Part shown: piece after piece, positions 5,885 through 40,461 of the stretch | Numbering within the stretch: position 1 is the first letter of the stretch | Layout of the letters: each line of letters opens with the position of its first letter | Source: Candidatus Methanoperedens sp. | GTDB taxonomy: Archaea; Halobacteriota; Methanosarcinia; Methanosarcinales; Methanoperedenaceae | Direction of reading: 5' to 3' | Assembly: GCA_030650845.1 (NCBI GenBank) | Contig: JAUSDC010000093.1 | Location: 1 to 40,697 of the forward strand | DNA length: 40,697 nt | Translations under genes and position numbers: made by a program | Notes under the pieces: generated by a model | The model's database searches: none | Told to the model about the DNA's origin: nothing | Seen by the model: only the letters and a program-made list of their open reading frames with translations

Positions 5885-6751
5885 TTATTTTCTGCCGAAA
5901 ATACGTTTGACGTTGGTCACAACAAATCCGTCCGTATTCGTTACCATCGTATTGAACCTGATAATGAAATCCCTGGCTATGTGAGGCATTACACCCCGGA
6001 ATTTCTTCATATACATTGCCTGCTGCCTTGAGAAACCTTCTTCGAACCACTCAAATACAAGCGCGCCGTCAGCAATGTCCATCATCTCTTCTTCTTTCAT
6101 GCTCTCGAAAATGCCTCTACCGAGCAGCAGAAATACAAGCCCATCCCATTTCTTGGATTTGCGCTGCAGTTCTTCGAGAAAAGAGATGGAATCGTTCCAG
6201 CTCATTGACCTGTTGCACGCATGGAAAAGAGATGTCAGAGAATCGATGATCACAAGGTTATCGGGAGCATTGGTATCCAGTGTGGAAACAAGTTCATTTA
6301 TAATCTGGCGTTCTTCATCTTCACTTCTCAATGCTTTAAGGCTGATCCAATCTTCCTTATTACTGGATGGGAATAATGAATTTGGTGACAGGTCCCTGAA
6401 GATCATATTTTCAGAAAGGGTAGATGCGAATTCAGGAGGGAATGTATGTCCCAGTTCTGCCATAATATCCTCTTTTGTGTGAGTGAAAGAAATGTAGCAG
6501 ATCTTTTCCGGGAATTTCAGGCTCTCTTCTTTCTGAAGGAGCATGGTAAGCTGATTAGATACTAATTTTAGATCTTCAGGATTCTTTTTCATCATGGAGT
6601 GCATGACTGCGCAGGTGTATGCGAATTCAGTGCTACCTGCGCCCACGTCTCCTATAAGGAGCACGAGTGAGCCTGATGGAAAGCCTCCTTTGATAATAGT
6701 ATCAAGAGTTGAGATTCCTGTTGGGGTTCTATTTAGTGTAATGGGTATCAC
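5885..6751 (-). CDS. KaiC/RAD55-like RecA-superfamily protein with altered Walker A
   Basis: This 288-residue protein has the archaeal KaiC/RAD55 layout. It opens with RTPTGISTLDTIIKGGFPSGS, split here by family convention as the TGIxxLD and GGFPxGS motifs, followed by a P-loop at residues 34-41 and a Walker B-like strand ending in D170 (NLVIIDSLTSLF). The P-loop reads GDVGAGST, with Ser40 where RecA-fold ATPases carry the invariant lysine. It may therefore bind nucleotide weakly or act as a non-hydrolysing signalling partner. The start is GTG at 6751. A TATA-like TATATAT about 25 bp upstream argues for a leaderless transcript beginning at this GTG. Two histidine kinases follow, suggesting a signalling role. 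The exact function is unknown. Confidence 0.85.
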   Translation of the reverse strand: MIPITLNRTPTGISTLDTIIKGGFPSGSLVLLIGDVGAGSTEFAYTCAVMHSMMKKNPEDLKLVSNQLTMLLQKEESLKFPEKICYISFTHTKEDIMAELGHTFPPEFASTLSENMIFRDLSPNSLFPSSNKEDWISLKALRSEDEERQIINELVSTLDTNAPDNLVIIDSLTSLFHACNRSMSWNDSISFLEELQRKSKKWDGLVFLLLGRGIFESMKEEEMMDIADGALVFEWFEEGFSRQQAMYMKKFRGVMPHIARDFIIRFNTMVTNTDGFVVTNVKRIFGRK

Positions 6752-6803: not shown

Positions 6804-9800
6804 TCATGATGAATGCACCCTCTGGTAATCGAGATTAAGAGTTCCATTCGAAAGTGGATTCTCATCCACATAACGGACAAGCACATAGTATTTGTTTATC
6901 ACTGGTACATAAGGCACATCCCCTGAGAATGTACCGTCAGGTATAAGTTGATCCTGTGTTAGCGTAATATTGCGATAGGGCATACCGGTTGAATTAAGTG
7001 TTGTCACAGTATCCCATCCAGAGGTAGTGCTATTCTTAATGAGGACAGTAAAATTACCACCCGATACAGTATAGTTCAACTGAAGCACTTGTAATGTATT
7101 AGCCTCTGGAATATCAGTGGTATTTGTGGTGATATTAAGATGGTAACTAAATCCATGAATTCGTTGAAACTCGATGTAAAGATCCCCTGGCGCGGTTCCC
7201 CCGGGTGTCTGGTCAGTGAATCTGGTCTTGACCTGACCATCTGATATCTGGTTAGAAGTTAGTGTCACATTATTTTGTGTCCATGATGAGTTTGAAGTTA
7301 AGCTTTGTGTGGTTCCCCAGGTAGATGAGATATAATCCCAGATGTCCATATTATAACCGGGCTCATTAGTGTTCCCGAGCTTATAACGAGTCTCAAGGCT
7401 ATAGTTTCCATCAGCTGGTATTGAAGATGTTGTGGTTGAGATATTCATCTTATAACCATTATAATATATAATGGGTTGGAGTAAATCAACACCTATGTTC
7501 CCATTGGTTGTTAGATCAATACCTTCATATTTTATTTTTATTACGCCGCCTCCAGTATTGTAATTTAAAGGATTTGGAATAACCTTGTTGTTCACATGCG
7601 TAGAATCAGGGGTACCATCAAATAAGGCGGTCCTAATGCTTTCCCATGCCATTGAAGTCTGGTTATATATAAAAACATCAGTTCCGGCATCTGCATACGA
7701 AGAATCATTTATTGTAATATTTACCCATGAAGAACTTGGATTTGTTTCTGTATAGCTATAAGTTGCATCTGTAGAATAGCGATTTTTTGTTAGTGTTAGT
7801 AATGGGGTATCCCATCTTATTATATTTCTGGAACTAGCTCCATTACTTGTATTCTGAATACCTTTAAACATAATAGAATAATTACCTGTTGATGTAAAGT
7901 CGGACGGAGATATTAAAGCACTGTTTTTAAGGGCAAACGGGGCAGTCCCCGAGTATGTTCCATTATAGAGTTCTTTAAGAGTCCCGTTTGGTTTCTTAAG
8001 ATAAGCATAGTAGTTGCTGCTCGCTGCCGAAGTAACTATTTCAAATCTATAAGAAAAAGTTGCCGTATCAGGTGTACCGTTATTCCATGTAAAGTTTGTT
8101 CCATTCCACCATGTTGTATAAGTTCTTGCACCCGAATCACCATTGTTGTCGGCATCAGAATTTAACGAACCTGAAGCAGGGCTGCCGCCACTCCCGGTCC
8201 ATGCTAAAGTACACGATCCACCGGATGGAGAAACTGAGCAAGAATTTGTCCAACTTTCGTTGTTGCTGAGAAAAAGCCATGTATTTGTTTGTCCATAAGC
8301 TATGGTTTTAGGTATGGTCACATCAATGTTGTTATCATCAGTGTTCAAATTGGTCGCATTATAAGAACCGCTTGTTCCATTGACTCTGTTTATTGTTGGA
8401 GAAATCGGAATATCTCTTGATACTGCTGCACTTTCTCTCAATGTTGCATAATTATCACTATCTGATGCAGATTGCATACCTGCAAAATTCGTAGTATTGC
8501 CAATTATATCGGTATTGTCAGTAACATTTTTATCATTAATTGAATCAGGTGTCATCGGGGTACTGTTCTTGTAAAAAAGAGCAAATGCCCCGCCATCGCT
8601 GCTATTTCTGGCATTGTCGAAATTATCCACATTACCAAAAGTTTTTTCAGATACATTAAACACAAAAGTGAACACTGAAGGAGCGCTTGCAGTATTATTC
8701 ACCCATGTAGCATTCATATTACCATCAATGTCCACAGTGCGTGTTGATATCACATGCGATGAGTTAGGCGAGAAAAAGCTTGCGCTGAAGGATTGGTTAC
8801 CTTTTTGAACATCTTTTATATAGACACCATCGACGTACACTTTCACATGATCAAAGTCTGAATCACTCGGGTCATTCCATGTCCATTTGATATACAATGG
8901 GTAATAGGGCACATTTGTCAGATTGGTTACGCTCGCAGGCGGAATTCCTGTGACGAACATATACTCGGTGCTATTCACATTAGTTCCACCCGGGCGGCTG
9001 CTGTTCACAATGTAGTAATATACCGCGTCTGGAATAAGGTCAGCAAGGCTGACCGAGTGGTATGAAGTAGTCGAATCGCATGCTATGGACGTGTAATTTC
9101 CTGAGGATGTCCCATATTGAACACAGCCTGTAGTGTTAACCCTTGTTGGAATTTCTATCGAATTGAAAACATAGCCGCTCTTGGCAGTCACTATTATGTT
9201 ATTGATAGTTTCCCATGATATTGTCGAAGAGGTGCTGAGCACGCTACCGCTCTGGATATTTGTGATCTTCATACCAGTGGCGTTATTAACATTGATCGTT
9301 GTACTTGCATTTCCGCTTATATCCGTCTGAACCAGGGAAGTTGACAAATTGCCATCGCCGCTGTCAAAACTGATACTCTCGTTTGAGAGTAGATTTCCCC
9401 GACTATTTTTCAGAGTAGATGTGATATAAAATTCGGGATCTGATTCTGTATAAGCAAGCGATAAGAACTCTCCCTGCGATGATGCAGGGTAAACAAACGT
9501 GGTGGTATAAGCTGGACTGGTCAGGCTGGCATCAATATAATAAAATCCTGCACCTCCAGTTTTTAACATTATACTTGCTCTGCCATCTGCACCTGATACA
9601 GCAGAGTTCTGAAGTAGTGTGGCAGTAGCATTGGCATTGCTCGGTTTACGCGTTGTGTTAACATTGAAATTGACCTGCACGTTCGGTATAGGATTATTGT
9701 ATTTGTCCTGAACCTCTACAGCAAGATTAATAGTTCCTTCAACGGGCAGATTCATATTTTCAGGAGTTATTTTAACAAGTCTCATGGGTGATGCATGAGA

Positions 9801-27953: not shown

Positions 27954-30059
27954 TTAAGCCCCTCTTAACAGCTCCATCATCTTGCCCGCATCTGTCACAG
28001 GAAGCTGGCAGCTATAATTCCTGCAGACATACGCAGTAGCCCTGCCCTCGATGCTTTTGAGGTCTCTCGCATATTCAGCAATGCCAATTATTTCAGTGTC
28101 CTCAACAGTCCGAAGGATAACCACCTTTCCAGGCATGAACTCTCTTCTCAATGCCGCAAGCATGGCTTTTGTATCCTCTGCCCCTGCCTCACCTGCAATA
28201 ACCACTTCGCTTGTCGGACCGAGCGCAAAATCAAGCGCCACCATCATCTGTGTATATACCATTGGCATCTGCCAGATCGTTCCTGAAAAAGCCCTTCCGA
28301 TCTGTGCCGCTTTTTCCTCAAATTCCATATTTGCTGTCATCCTTCCAAGGCGCGACAGGTTAAGCATTGCAACCGAATTACCAGAAGGTAATGCTCCATC
28401 ATATATCTCTTTCTTTCGAAATATAAGTTCCTCACCGTCATCTGCAGTGAAATAAAGACCATGTTTTTCCTTATCCCAGAAATGCTCGATCATCTTTTGC
28501 GTTATTTCAAGCGCAGCATTCAGGTACGATACCTTAAAAGTCGCTTCATAGAGTTCTATCAATCCCCATGTAAGAAAAGCATGATCATCCAGAAAAGACA
28601 TCACATCTGCCTCGCCTTCGCGGTAGCGGTGGAAAAGCCTTCCATCCTTACCTCGCATTCGCGAAAGTATGAAATCTGCCGCCCTGCAGGCAGCATCGGC
28701 ATACTCAGGTTTATTAAACGTTGAAGCGCCCTTTGCAAGCGCAGCTATCATCAGTCCATTCCAGTCTGCCAGTATCTTATCATCCTTTCCCGGATGCACG
28801 CGGTTTTCACGGGCTGCGAAAAGTTTCTGCTTTGCATCGCTCATTCTTCGAAGTATCTCTTGCGCCGATAATTTAAGGTCTGCTTCCAGTTCAGGAAGTG
28901 TTTTGGACAGGTGGAGTATATTTTTTCCAGAACTACTCCCTTTTTCCCTGAAGTTTCCATGTTTATCGATCCCGAACACTTTTTTCATCAGTTCACTATC
29001 TTCCCCGAGAATCGAATCTATCTCCTCCTCTGCCCAGACGTAAAACCTTCCTTCCACCCCCTCGCTATCCGCATCTTCGGCTGAATAGAATCCCCCCTCA
29101 GGAGATGTCATATCTCTCAGGACATAGGTAAATATCTCCCTTGCCGTTCTTTTGAACTCATCATTCCCGGTCGCCTGATAAGCCTCTGTATAAGCCATAG
29201 CCAGCAGTGCCTGGTCATAGAGCATCTTTTCAAAATGAGGAACAATCCATCCTGCATCAGTGGAATATCTATGAAAACCTGAGCCGACGTGGTCATATAT
29301 CCCGCCCATGCTTAAGGCTAAGAGTGTGCGCTCAACCATTCTTAGAGCCATAATATCACCTGTGCGCTTCCAGTTGCGCAAAAGAAACATGAGATTATGC
29401 GGGGTCGGGAATTTAGGGGCGCCGCCAAAGCCGCCGTACTGCTCGTCAAATGCTCCCAGGAGCTGCTCATAAGCCACATTAAGGACATCCTCTTTCAATT
29501 CCTCTCCAGCTTTTTGCTCATCTTTAAGTGACGAAATAACCTCTGCAGCAAGAGCTTCTGCCCTGTCCTTATTCATCTTCCAGATGTCTCGGATCTGCGG
29601 TATTATCTCCATCATGCCCTGTCTGCCGAATTTGCTTTTCTTCGGAAGATATGTTGCTGCAAAGAATGGTTTTTTATCAGGCGTCAATATTATATTGAGC
29701 GGCCACCCACCGCTACCTGTCATCGCCTGGCAAATCTTCATGTAGATGCCATCAATGTCTGGGCGCTCTTCCCTGTCTATCTTTATACTGACAAAAACTT
29801 CGTTCATCAATTTTGCTACTTCTTCATCTTCATACGATTCCTTTTCCATCACATGGCACCAGTGGCATGTGGAATAACCGCTTGAGAGAAATATGGGTTT
29901 GTCTTCTTTTTTTGCTTTCTCAAAAGCATCGCTGCCCCACGGATACCAGTCCACGGGATTATGAGCGTGCTGGAGAAGATAGGGGCTTTTCTCAAGGGCA
30001 AGGCGGTTGGGTTTTATTCTGGACTTTGAATGATTTTTGTTCTCCATCTCTTTACTCAC
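27954..30059 (-). CDS. DUF255 thioredoxin-fold protein (YyaL/SPATA20 family)
   Basis: This 701-residue protein has an N-terminal thioredoxin-like domain with [15 protein letters not shown] and the redox motif C65-H-W-C68. A long (alpha/alpha)6-barrel-like region follows ([31 protein letters not shown], then [14 protein letters not shown]). This is the usual full-length arrangement. The function is poorly known; the family has been annotated as glycosidase- or epimerase-like. The start is GTG 30059, overlapping the stop of the metallopeptidase gene by four bases (GTGA); ATG at codon 5 is an alternative. Overlap with the restriction-island genes may be accidental or indicate shared transcription. 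Confidence 0.9.
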
Positions 30060-30385
30060 TCCATCAGAGAACGCTTTTCTTTGTTCAATTTCTTTTCAAT
30101 CATCTCATAGTCGCCCAGGTAAGCAGTCATTAAGCTTTTCCAGAGTTTACCATGATTCGGAACATTGAAATGCAGCAGTTCATGCACAATCACATAGTCG
30201 CCGATTTCCTTGTCCATATCCAGAAGTTCTTTATTAAAATTCAGATTACCATCTGTCGAACATGAAGCCCATTTGTTTGCCATAGGTCTGATAGCAAGTG
30301 CTTTTACCTCAATATCCATTTTTCCGGCAAACTCTTTTACTCTTGCCTTGAATTCTGATTTATCTTCCCATTTACCCTTGATCAT
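30056..30385 (-). CDS. Minimal YgjP/WssP-type zinc metallopeptidase
   Basis: This 109-residue protein holds only the C-terminal catalytic half of the YgjP/DUF45 family: [17 protein letters not shown] (39-54), then the zinc motif H68-E-L-L-H72 and a third ligand H78 in PNHGKLW. Family members are usually about 230 residues, so the N-terminal half is missing. The frame has its own ATG overlapping the hsdR stop (ATGA), so it is a designed short form rather than an obvious truncation. DUF45-type proteins are frequent neighbours of type I restriction genes. A role in processing or turnover of HsdR is inferred from position only. Confidence 0.8.
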
Positions 30386-33312
30386 AAGTTGTAGGCTTTG
30401 AATAACTGATTGAATAAATCTTCTACAATAGCAGCAGCTTTATCAATGTCATCTTCTTCTCCAAGCAATGCGTAATAGGCTCCTGTTCTCAAATCTCTCA
30501 ATTCCTTTTCGCTGGTTTTCCAGTTTGGATTATTGATGAACTCTCCTTTGATCTGCTTGGTTATTTCATCTGCTTTTTTGAAACCTTTGTCAATTAACGT
30601 TCTGAAAATAAAGAAAGTGAGACCATCAAAACCCTTCTCAACCTGTTCTTTTCTTCGTTTTATGTCATCTTCATAAATCTTTCTGATTTCTGCTAATGCT
30701 TCCAGCGTTGTTAATTGTCTATCTTCATAGCGTTCTTCCACCTGTGCAGCTCTTTCCTGCAAACCTATTAAAAATGGATCGTCAGATTCTTTTTCAGCGA
30801 TTTTTTCAATACTCTTGACCCGGTTGATTACCCGTGTATTGTCATTTTCCTGAGATTCCTGTATTTTTTTGATCGTTTCTTCGTTAATCTCAAAGAATTC
30901 ATTGACCTGCGCCAAATTGCTCATGCCTACTTTATTCTGGATCAGTTCATTTGTTTTTCTCTGGAACTCCCTGTCAATCTGGATTCGTCTTGCATAAGCA
31001 TTTCTTACGATCTGGTAAATAGCGGAAAACGTGGTGTAATTATCAATATAGGGTCTCAGGAATTTATCAGGTGAAATGATCTCATATAGCATTTCCACCT
31101 CTTTGTACAATTTGAAAAATTCTTTTCTTTGAGATTTATCCCTGAAATGTGCAATGAGATTATCGGTGTCTTTGTCGTTAAAACCAAATTTGATCAGTTG
31201 TAAGTATGGAGGGACTTTTTCCACCATTTTTGCCTTGAACGAGTATTTCAGCAGTTGAATATCCTTTACTATCGCATTGATTTCTTTGCTGTCAAATGCA
31301 AGGGCTTTTTCAAGCTTGTCAAATATGCCTACAAAGTCCAGGACAAAACCATGAGGCTTTTTCATGTCCTTTTCTTCATTCTCGTAGGGTCTGTTTACCC
31401 TTGCAATGGCTTGAAGAAGGGTATGATCACGCATTGGTTTGTCCAGATACATTGCGTATAGAATCGGCGCATCAAAGCCAGTCAATAGCTTTTCTGTAAC
31501 GATCAGAATCTTGGGCAGTTCTCCAATTTTTGTGAACTTTTTTCTAATTTCCTTTTCTTTTTTGGCGTCAATGTGATATTTCTTTAAATCTTCTGTATCA
31601 TTATTGTTACCAGTATAGACTACTTCAGAATATTCCGGGGGCAGAAACTTATCCAGCGCCGTTTTATACATGGCGCATGCTGGACGGTCAACGCCAACCA
31701 AAAACGCCTTGTAGCCCATTGGCTCAACATTTTCTTTGTAATGCCTTGCGACATATTCAGCCACCTTTTCTACCCGTTCCTTTCCTTTTAAAAAGTTACG
31801 GGTGTTTACTGCGCGTTCCAGTATTTTATTCAATTCCTCGATGTCGCTTACTCCAAAAGCTTCAGCCAGGTTCAAGAACTCTTTTTCTAAAATTTCCCTG
31901 GGTACCAAAAGCTCATTTGGAGCCATGCCATAAAACAGGGGCAATGTTGTATAGTCTGCAATACTTTCTGCAATGGAATATTTATGCAGGTAACCAGATT
32001 CATCTTCTATGCCAAAAGTTTTGAATGTTCCTTTACCGTAAACTGTTTTGTCCACGGGTGTACCTGTAAATCCTATCAAGGTAGCATTGGGGACTGCAGC
32101 CATCAGATATGTCCCTAAATCGCCCCCTGTGGTGCGGTGGGCTTCATCGATAAGCACATAAATGTTTTTGCGAAGATTTACGTTAGCAGGCATATCCCTG
32201 AATTTATGCATCATGCTGACTATTATTCCTCTGTAATCATTTTTCAGCAATTTTTGCAATTCTCTTATAGAATCTGCCTGTACAACATTTTTTACACCCA
32301 ATGATTCAAGATTTCTTGCCATCTGGTCTTCCAGTTCATTGCGGTCGATCAATAAAAGAATGGTGGGTTTTTCTGCTTCGGGGGCTTTAAACAGCAATTC
32401 TGCTGTTTTTATCATTGTGAATGTTTTACCGCTCCCCTGCGTATGCCATACTAAACCTCTTGTCTTAATATGGTCGATTGCCCGTTCTACTACTTTTACG
32501 ACTGCTATTTTCTGGTGTTGGGCTAAAATGTATTTGTTCAATTCTTCATTTTGCTCAGCAAAAATAATGAATTTTTTCAGGTAATCAAGTATGTTCTGCC
32601 TGTCGCAAAACGATTTTACTTTTGCTTCCAGATTGCCAATTTCTTCTTCTTTCCAGTTAAAAATATTTCTTTTATTAATATTCCATGTTACGCCATACGA
32701 AAAACCAATGCTTTCAGTGGCTGTAAAAATTTGCTCCGGACAGAAAAACTCAGGCGTCTCACGTTGGTAGCGTCTGATCTGGTCTATGCCAATGGCTATG
32801 GCTTCGTCTTTGGTGGCGTTTTTACATTCAATTACCAGAACCGGAATGCCGTTAATGAGAAATACCACATCTTCACGATTGGCATATTGCCCGTTGAATA
32901 GATAATATTCTTCGGTTACTTCATACACATTTTTGTCAGGCTCGTAATAGTTTATCAGTATAAGGTTGAACTCGCGGTTTTCTTCTTTGCTGAAAAAAGT
33001 CTTTTCTCCCTGAAGGTGCTGTAAAAAATCCCGGTTTCCCGCGATGGTGGGTAACGGCAGATTGAGTTTGCGCAGGAGTTCTTCTTTTGTATCTTTGAAT
33101 TTTGGATTGAACTCTTTTACTTTTTCAAATAGAGTGTCGATAAAAAAGCGTGATGCATTTTTGGCTTTATCTCTGGGTGAAGCGCCGGATGGATTAAAAC
33201 CTCTGCGTTGCTCGGCTTCGCTTTGCGGGACATACCTCCAGCCGATTTCCTGTGCATATTTTAGTATGCGGACTTGCACGCTTTTATGTTCTGTTGGTTT
33301 GAGAGTTGTCAT
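30382..33312 (-). CDS. hsdR: Type I restriction enzyme, R subunit
   Basis: This 976-residue ATP-dependent translocase/endonuclease has a PD-(D/E)xK nuclease site with D148, E162 and K164 (ANREDVVFL, then VLVIECKN). The helicase has Walker A HTQGSGKTF (about 295-305), a DEAH box LIDEAHRTTGGD, FTGTPVDK as motif III, and TEKLLTGFDAP and QAIARVNRP as motifs V/VI. A helical C-terminus mediates assembly with HsdM/HsdS. All catalytic motifs are present. Unlike a standard hsdMSR operon, it is separated from hsdS by three unrelated genes, 69 bp after the stop of the unknown gene upstream, and so may have its own promoter. Confidence 0.95.
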   Translation of the reverse strand: MTTLKPTEHKSVQVRILKYAQEIGWRYVPQSEAEQRRGFNPSGASPRDKAKNASRFFIDTLFEKVKEFNPKFKDTKEELLRKLNLPLPTIAGNRDFLQHLQGEKTFFSKEENREFNLILINYYEPDKNVYEVTEEYYLFNGQYANREDVVFLINGIPVLVIECKNATKDEAIAIGIDQIRRYQRETPEFFCPEQIFTATESIGFSYGVTWNINKRNIFNWKEEEIGNLEAKVKSFCDRQNILDYLKKFIIFAEQNEELNKYILAQHQKIAVVKVVERAIDHIKTRGLVWHTQGSGKTFTMIKTAELLFKAPEAEKPTILLLIDRNELEDQMARNLESLGVKNVVQADSIRELQKLLKNDYRGIIVSMMHKFRDMPANVNLRKNIYVLIDEAHRTTGGDLGTYLMAAVPNATLIGFTGTPVDKTVYGKGTFKTFGIEDESGYLHKYSIAESIADYTTLPLFYGMAPNELLVPREILEKEFLNLAEAFGVSDIEELNKILERAVNTRNFLKGKERVEKVAEYVARHYKENVEPMGYKAFLVGVDRPACAMYKTALDKFLPPEYSEVVYTGNNNDTEDLKKYHIDAKKEKEIRKKFTKIGELPKILIVTEKLLTGFDAPILYAMYLDKPMRDHTLLQAIARVNRPYENEEKDMKKPHGFVLDFVGIFDKLEKALAFDSKEINAIVKDIQLLKYSFKAKMVEKVPPYLQLIKFGFNDKDTDNLIAHFRDKSQRKEFFKLYKEVEMLYEIISPDKFLRPYIDNYTTFSAIYQIVRNAYARRIQIDREFQRKTNELIQNKVGMSNLAQVNEFFEINEETIKKIQESQENDNTRVINRVKSIEKIAEKESDDPFLIGLQERAAQVEERYEDRQLTTLEALAEIRKIYEDDIKRRKEQVEKGFDGLTFFIFRTLIDKGFKKADEITKQIKGEFINNPNWKTSEKELRDLRTGAYYALLGEEDDIDKAAAIVEDLFNQLFKAYNL

Positions 33313-33381
33313 TTTCTTTTTCGATTCATACCTTTCCCATTATTCTGACGGTAATTTCTGTAACAACAAATCAAATTAATT

Positions 33382-34545
33382 TTAATGGTTTCTCCATTCA
33401 TCCTTTTTTATGCGTAAATAAGAGTTAAAAGCATGTATCCCCTTCTCACATTCAATAATAGTATCTAGAGATGGCATGTAAATGTCTTGAAATCCATTGG
33501 TAGTAGAAATCTTAATCGAATCTGCCGTCGGAACAATCCTTTTACCCTTCTTCTGTATGAGCTTATTTTTTTTCAATACATCAATTGACTTCTTGACAAC
33601 GGGATAAACCTTTTCTCTTTTCTTTTGAGCTATTATTTCTCTTCTAATAGCTTCTCTAATGTGTGGTAGTTCGGGGTTGGTTTTTCGCAATTCATTAAAT
33701 TCTGCTCTGTTTGTATATTGATCGCTTATGTATTTCTCATAATCTTCTACATAATGCTGATATCTGGTAGATAGAACGAGACATAAATGTTCTAATGTAC
33801 AGGGAAAACCCATTGCATTTAATGTATACACTGCCAAGAAAGTAGTAATATTATTAATTGTACCATCTTTCAGGCATTCAAGCGAATCAAAATCTTTTAA
33901 TGTGATTTCATTCAAATATTTATTATCCGGCAACGGAACATATCTTTCCTCCTTATGAATTCGATAACGCGATCTCATCGCATTTCGGCAGATGGATGTT
34001 AACACAATTTTAGAGAGAGCTTCATCGGCATCGAGAATATTATGGCTTCCTGAAACTTTTTGTCTCTTAAAAACAGAATCGTAGCAAAGATTAATGATAT
34101 CTTCTGTAGAGAGCTTCCGTGTAATTGCAAAAATCTCTCTGAGATAAGGAATATATGCTTTATAAGAATTCGTTATCTGAGCTAAAGTTTCCTTATCTGA
34201 GCGCCAATGAAGTCTAATTTTTTGTTCATCTTCCTCTTTGAGTTTATCAATACCTGTTCCACTTAAGGGACGTATTGAAGGATGATATTGAATAATCTCA
34301 AAATTTCCAAAATTTTCCGGACCATATAAATGAATTGTTGGCATCAGTACTGGTTTAGTCAATAAAGTCAATTCTTGAGTAATGAGAACGATGTTTTTTG
34401 TAAAGTGAGTTTTCTTTGTTTCATCAGAGGATACGGCCACCAGAGGGTATAAATCAGATGGTTCTACCAGACTAAGTGGACCCAATTCCATTAAACATTT
34501 TTTTGCGATTTCATGTATCTCCCGGAACTGTTCTTCAGTATGCAT
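33382..34545 (-). CDS. Unknown protein, HD-hydrolase partner in the inserted module
   Basis: This 387-residue soluble protein belongs to no family I recognise. The N-terminal ~130 residues look alpha/beta, the middle (about 130-290) is helical, and the C-terminal part includes VVKKSIDVLKKNKLIQKKGKRIVP (given here as approximate positions 315-340), patterned like a winged helix. No nuclease, ATPase or membrane motif is seen. The gene overlaps the end of the HD hydrolase gene by 11 bp, so the products are made together and may interact. Its AT-rich base use matches the neighbouring HD and ATPase genes and differs from the Hsd genes. Confidence 0.75.
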   Translation of the reverse strand: MHTEEQFREIHEIAKKCLMELGPLSLVEPSDLYPLVAVSSDETKKTHFTKNIVLITQELTLLTKPVLMPTIHLYGPENFGNFEIIQYHPSIRPLSGTGIDKLKEEDEQKIRLHWRSDKETLAQITNSYKAYIPYLREIFAITRKLSTEDIINLCYDSVFKRQKVSGSHNILDADEALSKIVLTSICRNAMRSRYRIHKEERYVPLPDNKYLNEITLKDFDSLECLKDGTINNITTFLAVYTLNAMGFPCTLEHLCLVLSTRYQHYVEDYEKYISDQYTNRAEFNELRKTNPELPHIREAIRREIIAQKKREKVYPVVKKSIDVLKKNKLIQKKGKRIVPTADSIKISTTNGFQDIYMPSLDTIIECEKGIHAFNSYLRIKKDEWRNH

Positions 34546-36118
34546 ACTCTTTTATTTCACCCTTCACTTTATCAAATACTGATGGGTCCCCTATCCACCA
34601 GAATTTTTTATAATTTATTCTTTTACTTTTTATCAGATCTATTCCCTTTTCTTTGAATTTCTCTTTGAGATAGGTTAGATAATGAGAAGAAGTGGATCTA
34701 CTTATCTCTAAAGTTCTACCAATCTCATCAGCACTGGTTTTTTTATCAGAATAAAGCTGATTTAATATTTTAAGGCTTGCTTTCTTTTCACTTCTTATTT
34801 CATTTAGTATTTGTGAAATTGTATCATAAAATACAGGCGCTATTGCAGTTTTAGGCTGAAATTCTCCTTTATATCCGAATATGTCCCTGCATATTTCATT
34901 AATTTTTATCGCGATATAAGGATCTGAAACATATATCGAGATATCCAAAATCAGTTCATACATTTTTTTGAGAGTTTCAAGCTCATTTTGAGCGACAATA
35001 TTAAGTTCATATGGCTTTTCAATGCCTATTGCTATCTTTCCATAATCCTTCCAAACATCACGCCGATTTTGATTGAATAAAATGTCATCATATTGGACTT
35101 TAGCTTTCGTTGTCAATTCCCGAAGAAATTCAGTTTGTTTTTCTGGCTTCCCCAGTATATTTTCAGCTTTAGTTATTATATCAGGTGGTGATTTTTTATT
35201 AATTGAGTATGCCCTTTTGTATAGACGACGTGATTGAAGTCTTGTGATCATGTCTCTTGCTTTATCGGATTTACGCATTTCATATAAGAGTTCCTCATCA
35301 CCTAGAATAAAAAGCAAATCAGAATTATCTCGTGTCCATGCTTCTAAGGCACAGTGTAACATTGCATCAGCTACTAATACTGTATGATGGCGAAATGCTG
35401 CCCTGTATAATTCATATCTTGCTCGCAACACTGTTAACAAAGAGGAAATTGAATCCTTTCCATCTGAAAAAGTTACCTTCTTACCTGTTTCTGTTTGAAT
35501 CAAGCGAAAACTTGAATATATACGGTCATCGTAATTTCCATAAGAGAGTCCTAAGAAATAACCATCTCTTCGAATATAATCTAAATTATCAGCATCAATA
35601 TATCCATTTAAAAATTCAGCCAGATAGTTTTTTTCATATTCTTGACTTTTAGTCACTATTTTCTTTATGTCATCTGCTTCATCTCTTTTCAGGACATCTG
35701 CAACAAATAACGTTTTAGAAGCCTCTTGTTTTGTCAAGATGTGATTTTCAATGACTAGATCCTTATAATCCCCATTTATCATAAGTTCCAAAAATTTTGT
35801 ATGTTTAGGTACATCGTCCAATTCTTCAGTAATGTGAGAAAAGCATGCATGTCCGATATCATGAAGAAGGGCTGCTTTAAATAATAGTTCCTTCTCGTCG
35901 AGAGATAATTGGATATGGCTGCGTTCCAAAATAGTATTGACACAATGGCGCACACCTATACTATGGTCAAATCTTGTATGTACTGCTGTAGGATAAACTA
36001 AATGAACCAGAGCTAATTGTTTGATTTTTCTAAGACGTTGCATTTCGAAAGTGTCGAGTAGTTTTACTTCGCCAGGAAGTAGTTCTATATCTCCATAGAT
36101 TGCATCTCTAATTTCCAT
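34535..36118 (-). CDS. HD-domain phosphohydrolase (SAMHD1/dNTPase-like) with C-terminal HTH
   Basis: This 527-residue protein has an N-terminal HD phosphohydrolase of the COG1078/SAMHD1 type. Metal ligands are H52 (TRFDHSIGV), H86 and D87 (LLHDIGHACFSH), and D175/D177 (YIDADNLDYIRRD). The histidines H90, H95 and H106 match the catalytic set of SAMHD1-like dNTPases. The substrate is unproven; dNTPs or another nucleotide are likely. Residues ~438-490 form a helix-turn-helix (TSADEIGRTLEISRSTSSHYL), unusual in this family, suggesting DNA binding and autoregulation at the adjacent operator array. It is divergent from the AAA ATPase gene and first of a two-gene unit. Confidence 0.87.
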   Translation of the reverse strand: MEIRDAIYGDIELLPGEVKLLDTFEMQRLRKIKQLALVHLVYPTAVHTRFDHSIGVRHCVNTILERSHIQLSLDEKELLFKAALLHDIGHACFSHITEELDDVPKHTKFLELMINGDYKDLVIENHILTKQEASKTLFVADVLKRDEADDIKKIVTKSQEYEKNYLAEFLNGYIDADNLDYIRRDGYFLGLSYGNYDDRIYSSFRLIQTETGKKVTFSDGKDSISSLLTVLRARYELYRAAFRHHTVLVADAMLHCALEAWTRDNSDLLFILGDEELLYEMRKSDKARDMITRLQSRRLYKRAYSINKKSPPDIITKAENILGKPEKQTEFLRELTTKAKVQYDDILFNQNRRDVWKDYGKIAIGIEKPYELNIVAQNELETLKKMYELILDISIYVSDPYIAIKINEICRDIFGYKGEFQPKTAIAPVFYDTISQILNEIRSEKKASLKILNQLYSDKKTSADEIGRTLEISRSTSSHYLTYLKEKFKEKGIDLIKSKRINYKKFWWIGDPSVFDKVKGEIKEYAY

Positions 36119-36280
36119 TATTTAACAAATTAACATTGATCAGTAATAAAGCTTTCTATTAATTGATTTCTGTTAAAATGTTAATTTAATAACATCAAGA
36201 ATTGATTTTTTTAACAAAAATCGCCGAATTAAATTATGAAATTAGCTAATATTGTTAATATGTTAAAAACTATGTTAAAC

Positions 36281-36292
36281 TGTTATATAACA
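36281..36292. promoter_or_regulatory. Palindromic operator TGTTATATAACA
   Basis: TGTTATATAACA is a perfect 12-bp palindrome. Its left half is the last hexamer of the TGTTAA array, and its centre is TATA-like. It lies 59-70 bp before the ATPase start. Confidence 0.5.
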
Positions 36293-36318
36293 CGCTCATG
36301 TTTAGAACAGAAACGAAA

Positions 36319-36337
36319 TGTTCTTATATAAAGAACA
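36319..36337 (+). promoter_or_regulatory. Palindrome enclosing the TATA box of the AAA ATPase gene
   Basis: TGTTCTT-ATATA-AAGAACA is a perfect inverted repeat with 7-bp arms. The enclosed TTATATAAA lies about 22 bp before ATG 36351, so it is the likely TATA box of a leaderless transcript. A protein bound here would block TBP directly. Confidence 0.6.
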
Positions 36338-36350
36338 CTAATTTAAATCC

Positions 36351-37637
36351 ATGGTTACTAATGGTAAATATGCAGACATAATCAATGATATTATGAATCA
36401 ATGGGGATATCATTCAAATCCCTATTATGACCATGAATTACAGCCAGATATACTTTTCGATTTATTCGTTAACAGAGAAGTAAGTATTGAAGAATTCTAT
36501 AAATCTATGAAATTGAATACAAGTATGTTTTGTATCGAAGGTGATTACGGTGTAGGGAAATCATCGTTTTTTAGGCGCTGCTCTTTAGGACAGGAGCAGA
36601 TAGATGAATCAAATATTGTGACAAATAAAATAACAATTACAAAAGATACCAGTGAAAATTCTTTTTTATTGTCTATTCTAAGCGCTGTTCTAAATGCGCT
36701 AAAAATATCTTCTGGATTAAGCCAGGAATCAAAAGATGAACTTGGTGAAATTGAAAACGTTGTAACAACACAAAGAGAACAAAGCACGGAAGGCGCTCTT
36801 AGTGGCGGTTTGATAGGATTAAAACAGACAAGAACAAAAGCAAAAAGCGAGCAGCACTCGCCCAATTATACAAGTCTCAATATGCTATCTGACTTGTCAA
36901 ATATTGGAAGAATCTGTGAGATAGATTTGGATAAAAAAATATTGTTACCAATTGATGATCTTGAATCAGAAAAATGTGATTTAGATCAGGTTGTATATTT
37001 AGTCGGACTTCTGAGAGATTTGATATTTACAGATAATTACAATATTATATGTATTGGTGAACCGGGACTTCGAGAGAAATTATCATCAAGTGGGAGAACC
37101 CGGTCGGTATTTGGTGAAAGTATTTTTTTAAAGGAATTGTCATTTAATGATTTCAATAAAGCTATTGAGAAACGATTGGCATATTTTAAGAGCAAAGAAA
37201 ATAATACTTCTCCTTTTGATCCTGACGTACTCAAAATAATTTACAAATATAGTTATGGAGATATTAGATGGGCATTTAACACTTTAAACCGGATGTTTGA
37301 AATACTCATTAGAAAAAATTATATCGTAAAAACCTATGGCCTATCTCATGCATTACTTGTCTTGAAGGAAATAGAATATCGAGCATTTGATTCTCTGGAA
37401 AAAAATGAACAAATGCTGTTAGTTGTATTATCAAAAATTGGGCCTCATTCTCCAAGCGATAAAGAGTTACAGGAGGCTATGAACATGGATAGAGTTACCA
37501 TTCAAAAATTAGTTCAGAAATTATCAGATGATAACAATTTATTAAGGAAGAAAAAGGAATCAAGAAAGTTTGTTTATGAGGTCGGCCCTGTAATTAAATC
37601 TCTTGAGAATACTGACTTGTTAAAAATCCCTTCATAG
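36351..37637 (+). CDS. AAA-type P-loop ATPase with C-terminal winged helix
   Basis: This 428-residue protein starts with HSNPYYDHEL...LFVNREVSIEEF, the pattern of archaeal AAA/STAND ATPases. It has Walker A GDYGVGKS (64-71), Walker B ILLPIDD (197-203), a sensor-like CIGEPG strand and an ORC/Cdc6-like lid (YGDIRWAFNTL). Residues ~350-420 form a winged helix (SPSDKELQEAMNMDRVTIQKLVQKL). A Gln/Ser/Gly-rich insert at ~135-180 is probably flexible. It is divergent from the HD gene and ends 5 bp from the convergent hsdS stop. It probably senses a ligand or DNA state and regulates the HD pair. The function is inferred only. Confidence 0.8.
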   Translation: MVTNGKYADIINDIMNQWGYHSNPYYDHELQPDILFDLFVNREVSIEEFYKSMKLNTSMFCIEGDYGVGKSSFFRRCSLGQEQIDESNIVTNKITITKDTSENSFLLSILSAVLNALKISSGLSQESKDELGEIENVVTTQREQSTEGALSGGLIGLKQTRTKAKSEQHSPNYTSLNMLSDLSNIGRICEIDLDKKILLPIDDLESEKCDLDQVVYLVGLLRDLIFTDNYNIICIGEPGLREKLSSSGRTRSVFGESIFLKELSFNDFNKAIEKRLAYFKSKENNTSPFDPDVLKIIYKYSYGDIRWAFNTLNRMFEILIRKNYIVKTYGLSHALLVLKEIEYRAFDSLEKNEQMLLVVLSKIGPHSPSDKELQEAMNMDRVTIQKLVQKLSDDNNLLRKKKESRKFVYEVGPVIKSLENTDLLKIPS

Positions 37638-37642
37638 TAATC

Positions 37643-38893
37643 TCATTCAGTTTGATTTACAATTTTCTTATCTTCGAACTCCAACTCATGCACCCTGCGC
37701 TGCCCGGTCATCAGTTCGTGCAGCAGGGTTTTGAACAGGGCGGCGAGGGTGCGTTTCTTCTTCTCAAGAATTTCGACTTTATCCTCAAAAGAATTAAGTG
37801 ACCTAATAATATCAGATCTTTCATTTTTTTCAGGTAAACCAAGTTTCAATTTTTTTAAAGTATTCCAAGAAGTTCTTGGGTGTTGAACCCCTGTAGTTGT
37901 TGATTTTGCATAATTAACCAGTTTTTCTATGTGGAAAAAATGTATAAGAAACTCATTCTCAACTCCATTTTTGCCTGTAAAAACCAAAATATCTGTGGAG
38001 CAAATCCCATCAAAATGTGCGATAGCAGCTTTGTCAAGATAAGGTCGAAGTTTTCCATAAAGTATTTCACCTTTATTGAATTTCGACTTTGAACTTACTA
38101 TTTCATTTTCATGACCCCAACTGTATATTCTTATTCTACTTGGAATAATATGTTCTAAACCAATATACGGGGTATTTCCATCTTTATTTGGCTCTGCATT
38201 AATTGAAACTCTTTCACAAATATCATCCAACTCCACTACCTTCCAACTCTTCGGCACTAAACCGATTTCTGTTTTTCTTTGGGATTCGCCTCTGGTGCCT
38301 TCGGTAAAGAGTTTTTGCATGAGGGCTTTTTTCAACTCGGTGGTGGTGCGTATGAGATTATCCTGCTGCTCAATGGCTTTTTGCACCGTGCTTAATACGT
38401 GGGCGATTTTGCGTTGTTCGGGTAAAGGTGGAATCAGGATATCAAATGACTTAATGTTTGCTAAAGAAAGTTTTGGTTGGGCGTTTTTTGACATTCTTGA
38501 AAGCAATTCATCACGATTATGAGTTGCAGATAAGAAATAAACCAAATAATCTCTATGAAGTATTTCTTTATTCTTAATAATTAGTCTTGCTGCATTTTCC
38601 GTAAGATTTGCACCGTCTAATTCATCTGGTATTTTACCGACAAAACCAATTGTTCCTGCAATGGAAATAAATACATCTTCTTTTCTGATGATGTAGTTTT
38701 TTATTTTTTCCATTACTTGAGGTTCCAGATATTTTAATTGGGTTTTGTTAACCGAAAAATTTTCAAAATCAGTAACTCTTAAATAAGGATAAGGGGTTGG
38801 TGTGTCAACCAGTTTCTCCCCTCTGGGCAAACGTTTTCCCCCTTTAACATCAATAAGATTTTCCAGTTTTTCAATTTTCCAGCCTTCCATCAT
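37643..38893 (-). CDS. hsdS: Type I restriction-modification specificity subunit
   Basis: This 416-residue DNA-recognition subunit has two target-recognition domains (about 1-150 and 210-370), each followed by a conserved helical spacer. The first spacer begins IPPLPEQRKIAHVLSTVQKAIEQQ and the second, less canonical, has ERSDIIRSLNSFEDKVEILEKKK and LHELMTGQRRV. TRD 2 opens GLVPKSWKVVELDDI and TRD 1 opens MEGWKIEKLENLI, the normal duplicated layout. It is full-length and apparently functional, defining a bipartite recognition site that cannot be read from sequence. The start overlaps the hsdM stop (ATGA). Its 3' end meets the convergent ATPase gene, interrupting the expected run-on into hsdR. 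Confidence 0.93.
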   Translation of the reverse strand: MMEGWKIEKLENLIDVKGGKRLPRGEKLVDTPTPYPYLRVTDFENFSVNKTQLKYLEPQVMEKIKNYIIRKEDVFISIAGTIGFVGKIPDELDGANLTENAARLIIKNKEILHRDYLVYFLSATHNRDELLSRMSKNAQPKLSLANIKSFDILIPPLPEQRKIAHVLSTVQKAIEQQDNLIRTTTELKKALMQKLFTEGTRGESQRKTEIGLVPKSWKVVELDDICERVSINAEPNKDGNTPYIGLEHIIPSRIRIYSWGHENEIVSSKSKFNKGEILYGKLRPYLDKAAIAHFDGICSTDILVFTGKNGVENEFLIHFFHIEKLVNYAKSTTTGVQHPRTSWNTLKKLKLGLPEKNERSDIIRSLNSFEDKVEILEKKKRTLAALFKTLLHELMTGQRRVHELEFEDKKIVNQTE

Positions 38894-40461
38894 ACCCCCA
38901 ATTTCCTTAAAATATTTTTCACCTCTGCATCAATGGTGATATACTCTCCTTCCTGTTCTCGAAGTTCCTCCACTATCTCTTCAATAGGACGATAGGTGTG
39001 GGCATCATTAACCTGTATGTAGCGGCTGGGCGAAATACTGTAATCATTCTTAACGATCTTATCCTTATTCACCAGCAGGGAAAATTTTTCCACTTCCTTA
39101 AAGGCTTTATAGGTCTCAGCAATGCGATCTATACCATCTTGTGTGATATAGTTCTTAGGATTTCCCTTTTCAAACTCCTTGCCTGCATGTAAAAGGAATA
39201 TTTTGTCCTTGTGCTTTTTGGCTTTGTTCAGAAAAATGATAATCCCCGGAGCAGAGGTGTTGTAAAACAGATTTTCAGGCAAGTATATCACGCCTTCGAT
39301 CAGGTCATGTTCAACAAACCATTTGCGGCATTCCTTTTCCTTATTGATCCCCTGGTTGCCGCTGCCGCGGCTGGCGGCTCCGGTATCCAGTACAACGCCT
39401 CCCCTACCAGTATCATTCATGCTGCTGTAAATATGCTGCACCCAGCCCCAATCAATCTTACCCCCGCAGGGACCTGCCGGGAAGCGCTCCATTTCATCAT
39501 TGATAAAAAAATCGTCATTTATATAGGATAAGCTGTCTTTTCCCTGGTTCCACATGGGATTTGCCACAACACGGTCAAACGTTCTTAGTTTGCCTGCGGT
39601 TTTGAAAATGGGATTTTTTAGCGTGTCGCCGATTTCAATTTCGCCCTCCATGTCGTGTATTACCATATTCATTTTGCTCATTGCCCATGTAGAAGCAATA
39701 AACTCCTGTCCATGCAATTGAAGCGGAGCATACTTTTCTTTAGAGCGCAGCGCCATTTTTTCTTCCATTACCATCTCGCATTTTATGAGCAGACCGCCGC
39801 TCCCGCAGCAGGGGTCGTAAATTTCCATGCCAGGCTCGGCATCCATTATCTTCGCTATGATGAAACCTACTTCTGTTGGCGTATAAAACTCTCCGGCACT
39901 CTGTCCGCTTCCTTCGGCAAACTTGCGTATCAGGTACTCGTAACTGCGCCCGATTATATCAGGCTCCACATCTTTCAATCCCAATCGCTTTTCGGAAACC
40001 TTTTCAATGAGTTTGCTCAATCGGTCATCATCAATATCACGCTGCCCATGTGTGGTAGCGTTAAAATCTACACGGTCAATGATTCCTTGCAGGTCTTTAT
40101 TTTCTTTGGCTACGTCACGAAGAATATCGGTAAGCTTCTGTCCGATTTTATCGGACAGTTTTCTAACCACATCCCACGTTCTTTCCTTTTCGGGGTCTTT
40201 GGGCTTAATGGGCATATAAAAACGCACTATTGATTTATCCCGTTCCACCAATTGCAGGGCTTTGGTTCTGCTATTTACTTTTTCTGCAATGCGGTCAATC
40301 TCATCATCAAACACATCGCACAATCGCTTTATAAAAATCAAGGGAAGAATATAATCTTTGAATTTGGCTGCATCAGCCGCGCCTCTGATACTGCAAGCTG
40401 CATCCCATATCCAGCTTTCCATGGATTTTACTTTTTCACCGTTTCCGTTTGTTTTCGCCAT
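38890..40461 (-). CDS. hsdM: Type I DNA methyltransferase, M subunit
   Basis: This 523-residue adenine methyltransferase has an N-terminal helical domain (WIWDAACSIRGAADAAKFKD) and an S-adenosylmethionine site in motif I, DPCCGSGG, at 216-223, preceded by GEFYTPTEVGFIIAKIM. The catalytic motif IV is N301-P-M-W rather than the commoner NPPF/Y; this variant keeps the catalytic Asn-Pro. It modifies host DNA with HsdS and forms the restriction complex with HsdR. A ribosome-binding AAAGGAAA precedes ATG 40461, and a TATA-like ATATAAAGG at 40520-40512 lies ~50 bp upstream. It is the first gene of the restriction island. Confidence 0.95.
   Translation of the reverse strand: MAKTNGNGEKVKSMESWIWDAACSIRGAADAAKFKDYILPLIFIKRLCDVFDDEIDRIAEKVNSRTKALQLVERDKSIVRFYMPIKPKDPEKERTWDVVRKLSDKIGQKLTDILRDVAKENKDLQGIIDRVDFNATTHGQRDIDDDRLSKLIEKVSEKRLGLKDVEPDIIGRSYEYLIRKFAEGSGQSAGEFYTPTEVGFIIAKIMDAEPGMEIYDPCCGSGGLLIKCEMVMEEKMALRSKEKYAPLQLHGQEFIASTWAMSKMNMVIHDMEGEIEIGDTLKNPIFKTAGKLRTFDRVVANPMWNQGKDSLSYINDDFFINDEMERFPAGPCGGKIDWGWVQHIYSSMNDTGRGGVVLDTGAASRGSGNQGINKEKECRKWFVEHDLIEGVIYLPENLFYNTSAPGIIIFLNKAKKHKDKIFLLHAGKEFEKGNPKNYITQDGIDRIAETYKAFKEVEKFSLLVNKDKIVKNDYSISPSRYIQVNDAHTYRPIEEIVEELREQEGEYITIDAEVKNILRKLGV

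Follow-up and report, generated by a model that had tools for sequence, protein, structure and literature searches.

A SAMHD1-type HD phosphohydrolase with an overlapping partner gene and a divergent ATPase in a Methanoperedens type I restriction locus: a candidate toxin-antitoxin-like module

Introduction

SAMHD1-like enzymes empty the dNTP pool and thereby restrict viruses in both animals and bacteria. How such enzymes are kept in the off state is, to our knowledge, an open question that the Clover system has only begun to answer. Clover consists of the dGTPase CloA and the nucleotidyltransferase CloB (PMC12265719), so that an HD dNTPase effector comes with its own regulator, and the gene pair described below would resemble it in this respect. 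Additional precedents come from restriction loci and from antitoxins. PrrC, whose gene lies inside a type IC locus, is activated by an anti-restriction peptide together with dTTP, and PrrC, RloC and the rlo genes represent extra effector genes within an hsd locus (PMC12707154, PMC2610378), as seen here. The antitoxin domains Panacea (SocA/DUF4065) and DarG C-terminal (PMC8832971) are matched by small HD-linked genes in related archaea.

Here we describe a locus in a 40,697-nucleotide stretch of a Methanoperedens MAG contig, hereafter the window, in which genes were called from a list of open reading frames and Pfam profiles. The locus, from a lineage of methane-oxidising archaea, is a candidate archaeal counterpart of the SAMHD1-like systems and combines the HD enzyme with an ATPase and what may be a protein antitoxin.

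Results

Open reading frame calls placed three genes between hsdS and hsdR, one of them divergent from the other two, and these are listed here with their neighbors and the sequence elements around them:

30056-30385, minus strand: YgjP-like metallopeptidase (PF01863, 96 bits), linked to hsdR in relatives
30382-33312, minus strand: hsdR, intact (HSDR_N, SWI2_SNF2; TIGR00348, 467.7 bits)
33326-33377, minus strand: 3'-end remnant of a DUF5615 toxin gene, FVVTEITVRIMGKV*, from alignment with the toxin genes of loci L011, L057 and L061
33382-34545, minus strand: partner protein, 387 aa, no Pfam family
34535-36118, minus strand: HD phosphohydrolase, 527 aa, Pfam HD and HD_assoc_2, C-terminal HTH-like region
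36123-36285, strand unspecified: four TGTTA-N3-TGTTA doublets in the HD-ATPase intergenic region
36281-36337, plus strand: operator-like array in the ATPase promoter, a TGTTC/GAACA pattern aligned in four loci
36351-37637, plus strand: P-loop ATPase, 428 aa, C-terminal winged-helix-like end
37643-38893, minus strand: hsdS (Methylase_S in two stretches)
38890-40461, minus strand: hsdM (N6_Mtase and HsdM_N)

The insert had been described in a first-pass annotation, whose coordinates, 11-bp overlap of the HD and partner genes (34535-34545) and 5-bp gap between the ATPase stop and hsdS proved exact to the base. Its description of the genes as AT-rich agrees with a GC content of 30-34% in the trio, below most of the contig. 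Another MAG carries orthologues of hsdR, YgjP, the ATPase and hsdS in identical order, and the gene arrangement is therefore not due to chance.

The interval between hsdS and hsdR was compared in six other orthologous loci, where it holds a DUF433/DUF5615 toxin-antitoxin pair (four loci), a VapBC pair (one) or nothing (one). These alignments indicate a cassette slot with fast turnover of its contents, which in Methanoperedens normally holds a two-gene toxin-antitoxin pair, and they bear out the earlier view of a restriction island that hosts extra genes. Given the toxin gene scar in the window, the HD pair occupies a former toxin-antitoxin site. The protein families of the restriction-linked pairs and of the HD pair are unrelated. 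Orthologous restriction loci with differing toxin-antitoxin-like cassettes in the same gap constitute a natural experiment, in which the swap is legible from scars.

HMM searches, proposed with the first-pass annotation, were clear for the HD protein (HD, 31.9 bits; HD_assoc_2, 52.1 bits; both passing the cutoff), barely positive for the ATPase (KAP_NTPase, PF07693, 21.9 bits against a cutoff of 20) and without any Pfam match for the partner. The HD protein shares its HD and HD_assoc_2 family with SAMHD1 and with prokaryotic HD dNTPases such as 2hek-like proteins and dGTPase defence enzymes, and phmmer returned 2hek at 6.6e-34 and SAMHD1 at about 5e-21. Full-length relatives in genomes G312 and G505 are about 36% identical to it. 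Residues Q34, L35, R49, H52, H86, D87, H106, D177, Y181 and D185 are kept in three of three full-length HD relatives, and H90 in two of three, the G505 protein lacking it. Amongst these, the H..HD..D set H52, H86, D87 and D177 aligns with SAMHD1 and is invariant in three homologues. The roles of the aligned residues, which we take over from what is known of SAMHD1, would be those of metal ligands, catalytic histidine and deoxyribose contacts, the last including the Gln-Leu also present here. On the basis of this conserved active site, the HD protein is classified as a SAMHD1/dNTPase-type enzyme, in line with the dNTP-depleting HD enzymes to which the first annotation had pointed, and is predicted to hydrolyze dNTPs. 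It differs from SAMHD1 in its added C-terminal HTH-like region and its overlapping partner gene, and Asn178 stands at the position of SAMHD1 K312. HTH/MarR matches at the C-terminal ends of the HD protein and the ATPase were below threshold but recurred in relatives, in agreement with the HTH and winged helix proposed earlier.

The partner passed no Pfam, SocA_Panacea or DarG model directly in HMM searches. An adjacent gene of 162-195 aa was found beside seven of 13 other SAMHD1-type HD genes inspected in the order; all seven products matched the C-terminal part of the antitoxin DarG (PADLOC DarG; E values of 4e-6 to 1e-8, under the whole-model cutoff), and one of the seven passed SocA_Panacea. 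A profile of the partner N-terminus ranked five of these HD-linked, Panacea-like proteins 1, 2, 4, 5 and 17 among 136 neighbors, with a score of 27.7 against a maximum of 22.9 over 30 column shuffles. This weak likeness is suggestive of a resemblance between the partner N-terminus and the Panacea/DarG-like proteins whose genes accompany HD genes in relatives, whereas the partner itself, at 387 aa, matches neither model directly. AlphaFold2 predictions for the partner (single sequence, pLDDT 33.5) and for the ATPase (two rows, pLDDT 34.4) were not reliable structures.

The ATPase carries a Walker A motif (GDYGVGKSS), a Walker B motif (ILLPIDDLE) and the motif GDIRW; its orthologue in G016 weakly matches ATPase_2 instead of KAP_NTPase. 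Orthologues are present in three other Methanoperedens genomes, dN/dS against that of Fe_173 is 0.11, and a scan of genome contigs gave Fe_173 as the sole match. In Fe_173 the ATPase gene lies beside a toxin-antitoxin pair, and in G008 and G016 it is solitary at hisH, in all three cases without the HD pair. G003 retains a 51-nt remnant of the ATPase operator adjoining a toxin-antitoxin pair, with no trace of the HD gene. Comparison of these loci indicates that the ATPase was lost repeatedly among relatives, and that it and the HD pair have separate histories, so that the insert is not a single block.

The ATPase promoter contains the array TGTT[C/A]-N19-GAACA-N9-TGTTC-N9-GAACA around a TATA-like TTATATA, which could be aligned across four loci and two downstream copies. 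Its 19-bp core occurs once in its own genome, and the pattern had nine matches in 34 family genomes as compared to none for a reversed control. Because the array is conserved at ATPase copies that stand without an HD gene, its assignment to the HD pair was rejected. A further 29 viral matches to the pattern were treated as chance, and these viruses encode no relative of the trio proteins.

In the window, a second array lies in the same intergenic region, directly adjoining the operator of the ATPase. TGTTA-N3-TGTTA doublets start at 36123, 36171, 36253 and 36273, four as against 0.09 expected across the whole window, and single TGTTA/TAACA sites number 11 in the intergenic region versus 1.4 in shuffles. 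The four-doublet cluster is unique in the source genome. It is absent from the HD-ATPase intergenic region of G312 and is therefore not a conserved trait of the trio.

Amongst the genomes searched, the HD and partner genes recur together in four, and the three copies outside the window are all broken. Relatives of the partner adjoin the HD gene in each of these: in G312 and G505 the two genes are adjacent and overlap, and in G163 they survive as fused remnants. The full trio recurs once, in the distant archaeon G312, with the same divergent layout but decayed and not near restriction genes; its ATPase is only distantly related to that of the window (30-35% identity). Flanks were readable for two of the three other copies, the third being on a 3.5-kb contig, and contained housekeeping or metabolic genes and no restriction or defence genes. 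DNA polymerase and NfeD-like genes lie around the G312 copy, with no hsd in the stretch read. The earlier proposal is supported in part, but a single unit of three genes with a tie to restriction is too strong a reading, the ATPase being separable from the HD pair. The concern that the trio might never recur as a unit was unfounded, and the related concern that it occurs mainly in housekeeping contexts was partly justified by the two readable flanks.

The trio gave no strong match in PADLOC, where the best hit was dGTPase at 21.9 bits (HD protein) and the partner and ATPase stayed below 16 bits; PARIS and RADAR, also considered, had no match there. Tblastn of the partner and ATPase against plasmids and phages, and scans of viral contigs with all three proteins, found no match. 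Identity with Clover fails, as neither the partner nor the ATPase matches a Pol-beta-type nucleotidyltransferase (CloB). PrrC/RloC was similarly dismissed: no trio protein matches an ABC ATPase-anticodon nuclease, and the trio is separable from hsd in relatives.

Discussion

The locus probably encodes a module, so far little known, for virus defence or growth arrest. We are evenly balanced on the more specific reading of an autoregulated, toxin-antitoxin-like pair of dNTPase effector and antitoxin, in which the ATPase would serve as a sensor or regulator. The pair in the slot would be a functional analogue of the usual toxin-antitoxin pair: the HD enzyme may act as the toxin, stopping DNA replication by dNTP hydrolysis, and the overlapping partner may bind and silence it, with both autoregulated through the TGTTA doublets in their own promoter. 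The AAA+-type ATPase, which can occupy the slot separately and has an operator to itself, would most likely be an ATP-dependent sensor or repressor that keeps the pair inactive until the cell is infected or restriction is lost. Overlapping co-directional genes, an operator-like promoter and a recurring pair were all found, as in type II toxin-antitoxin layouts. The SAMHD1-type active site, the trio in G312, the slot with its toxin scar, the DarG-like neighbors of other HD genes, and the sporadic distribution and decay of the HD and partner copies also favor the toxin-antitoxin-like reading. Against it stand the frequent occurrence of the ATPase without the pair, which may mean that the two simply share the slot, and the location of the other copies outside defence islands as far as flanks are readable. 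The absence of H90 from the G505 protein, the failure of the partner to pass a Panacea or DarG model and the low-confidence structure predictions also count against it. A fuller version is rather doubtful, namely that this is an archaeal defence system not described before, where a Panacea/DarG-like antitoxin would restrain the SAMHD1-type dNTPase and an AAA+ winged-helix ATPase would release it, all as an exchangeable cassette in the toxin-antitoxin slot of type I restriction loci, with the ATPase gene elsewhere in the genus bracketed by direct-repeat operator copies that would allow excision.

The ATPase and the HD pair could instead be independent cassettes in a recombination-prone slot, uncoupled from each other and from Hsd. 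The ATPase copies in Fe_173, G008 and G016, the operator remnant in G003 and the rapid turnover of slot contents all point in this direction, but G312 keeps the divergent order of all three genes despite its distant ATPase, which is unlikely by chance, and the TGTTA doublets directly adjoin the operator of the ATPase; we regard this alternative as fairly unlikely. Coupling to Hsd itself, in which the ATPase would detect HsdRMS inactivation, as PrrC does for EcoprrI, and unleash the HD enzyme, would suit the position inside the hsd locus and has the PrrC precedent (PMC12707154, PMC2610378). It appears very improbable in view of an intact ATPase beside a broken hsdR in Fe_173, of ATPase genes away from hsd in G008 and G016, of the hsd-free stretch read in G312 and of the missing ABC-ATPase and anticodon-nuclease domains.

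A housekeeping regulator of the dNTP pool, with the HD enzyme and its HTH serving as metabolic sensor or transcription factor beside hsd by chance, is distinctly improbable. The C-terminal HTH and the setting of the G312 copy between DNA polymerase and NfeD-like genes would fit, and SAMHD1-type HD proteins, present in 40 of 40 relatives searched, are also common as housekeeping enzymes, a further point against the toxin-antitoxin-like reading. The window gene, by contrast, has just four carriers among the genomes searched, with three of the four copies decayed, is low in GC, and shares its genome with two further HD genes of SAMHD1 type. The same genus also contains a SIR2-HD fusion that belongs to the same HD subfamily as the window protein, a point in favor of the toxin-antitoxin-like reading.

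Locus organization

The hsdM-hsdS and hsdR-YgjP genes of the window are separated by a divergently oriented ATPase gene and by an HD gene with its partner, and the coordinates and overlaps of the first-pass annotation were exact when checked against the open reading frames. The three genes have a GC content of 30-34%, below most of their contig (C28; the source genome comprises 3.4 Mb in 258 contigs).

Genes between hsdS and hsdR
36351-37637, + strand, ATPase
34535-36118, - strand, HD protein
33382-34545, - strand, partner (387 aa)

The locus is real and was correctly described, and it is more complex than "one module". Judged from sequence, the HD protein and its partner most likely form a toxin-antitoxin (TA)-like pair that targets nucleotides and occupies a TA slot, and the ATPase is separable from it.

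The HD protein

The HD protein exceeded the cutoffs of Pfam HD and HD_assoc_2, and by similarity it is a SAMHD1-type protein, its top solved-structure relatives being 2hek (6.6e-34) and SAMHD1 (about 5e-21). Aligned with SAMHD1, it has H52, H86, D87 and D177 at the metal-ligand positions, R49, H90, H106, Y181 and D185 at the catalytic or phosphate contacts, and Q34 and L35 at the deoxyribose-contact pair. These residues were invariant across three full-length homologues, except for H90, which is Gln in the relative G505. HTH-like matches at the C-end were sub-threshold in the window, and such a match recurred in G505, where it reached 24.5 bits (cutoff 26). The Methanoperedens relative G006 encodes an 806-aa SIR2-like/HD fusion of the same HD subfamily (L068 4961-7378), which supports the view that this subfamily can serve in defence-type proteins.

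The partner as a candidate antitoxin

The partner was without a family match, PADLOC giving weak JetB3 and WH_III-A matches only, and was present in 2 of 393 phylum genomes, query included. HD gene and partner occurred together in all four carriers found, because a partner relative immediately follows the HD gene and overlaps it in G312 (frameshifted) and G505 (truncated), and persists as a fused remnant in G163; the window holds the only intact copy. G505 also has, upstream of its HD gene, a disrupted frame that begins MVIDNPFTTAVGSMPPRFAGRQKE (L081 3288-3400) and resembles the beginning of an unrelated archaeal ATPase.

At 7 of 13 other SAMHD1-type HD loci examined within the taxonomic order, an adjacent gene encodes 162-195 aa. 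All seven products matched DarG in its C-terminal part, at E values of 4e-6 to 1e-8 that fall short of the cutoff for the whole model, one passed the SocA_Panacea model, and both of the two tested matched PADLOC DarG. Panacea is an antitoxin domain partnered with many toxins (PMC8832971). These HD and small-gene combinations are candidates for a recurrent TA or defence pair in related archaea.

HD-adjacent small DarG-C-terminal/Panacea-like genes
L073 3346-3930
L074 6254-6838
L072 3917-4420
L070 3982-4521
L071 5907-6455
L063 5299-5790
L066 5441-5926

The antitoxin hypothesis was set out in advance of its tests. A first profile-profile comparison of two partner rows with these small proteins was negative. 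A four-row N-terminal partner profile ranked them 1, 2, 4, 5, 17, 77 and 84 of 136 neighbouring ORFs and outscored 30 of 30 column shuffles; the two best-ranked proteins share 81% identity, which leaves less independent support than the ranks suggest. On this evidence, an HD toxin with an antitoxin-like partner is the leading idea but not a proven one.

Turnover of the hsdS-hsdR slot

The same locus was gathered from relatives through HsdR orthologues (89-94%); Candidatus Methanoperedens sp. Fe_173 was the nearest named relative in the searches made.

Slot content in relatives
G019: DUF433/DUF5615 (TA pair)
G003: DUF433/DUF5615 and a VapB-like gene at the contig end
G424: DUF433/DUF5615 (contig ends)
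Fe_173: ATPase and DUF433/DUF5615
G023: VapBC-like genes
G008: no gene

Just before hsdR, the window still carries the final codons of the DUF5615 toxin, which indicates that the HD pair occupies a former TA-pair site. G003 retains, beside its TA pair, 51 nt left over from the region upstream of the ATPase (score 52, against at most 27 in 500 shuffles), so the ATPase was earlier in this slot and was then lost there. Two orders of events would fit: arrival of the ATPase followed by that of the HD pair, or joint arrival of all three genes with later loss of the pair from relatives.

The hsdR gene is intact in the window, while in three relatives, Fe_173, G008 and G424, frameshifts or internal deletions have disrupted it (L011 5376-7228, L060 1040-3456, L061 2459-4379). 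In G023, two genes encoding 362-364 aa lie beside hsdS at the expected hsdM place (L058 6356-8538), and neither matched in a Pfam search.

A separable ATPase

Walker A, Walker B and GDIRW motifs are kept across the Methanoperedens ATPase copies, from which we read the protein as an AAA+ member; profile matches were weak (KAP_NTPase, ATPase_2, MarR). Its dN/dS of 0.11 between the window and Fe_173 points to purifying selection. The gene was found in 3 of 393 phylum genomes, query included. The proposal of one module held in part: the trio recurs in the same divergent order in G312, a distant genome of the phylum, but the ATPase stands without the HD pair inside the orthologous hsd locus of Fe_173 and adjoining hisH in G008 and G016. 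In G312, the ATPase is in pieces (30-35% identity, best E 2e-14), the HD protein is 36% identical over 531 aa, and the flanks include what we take, from reading the sequences, to be DNA polymerase large subunit and NfeD-like genes.

A common array, TGTT[C/A]-N19-GAACA-N9-TGTTC-N9-GAACA, surrounds a TATA-like element at four ATPase copies and stops 13-15 nt short of the start codon. The three-half-site pattern had 9 matches in 34 family genomes, against 0 for the reversed control. Since the array accompanies solo ATPases, autoregulation would be the simplest reading. The HD promoter region carries four TGTTA-N3-TGTTA doublets (0.09 expected in the window), found in the window only; a search for the array in G312 yielded none. 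They probably represent a second, putative operator that arrived with the HD pair.

In G008 and G016, where the ATPase adjoins hisH, a second operator copy lies just downstream of the gene; in G008, the two copies are 82% identical over 67 nt.

Operator direct repeats bracketing solo ATPases
L017 8659-8725 and 10008-10074
L022 about 6217-6249 and 7605-7637

At the hisH site of G009, G005 and G012, one operator is left and no ATPase match was found (L092-L094). The left flank of the upstream copy is fused to the right half of the downstream copy in G009, as would be expected if the ATPase was excised by recombination between the repeats, and G005 and G012 retain final ATPase codons. Because the three scars differ, they are best read as three separate ATPase losses.
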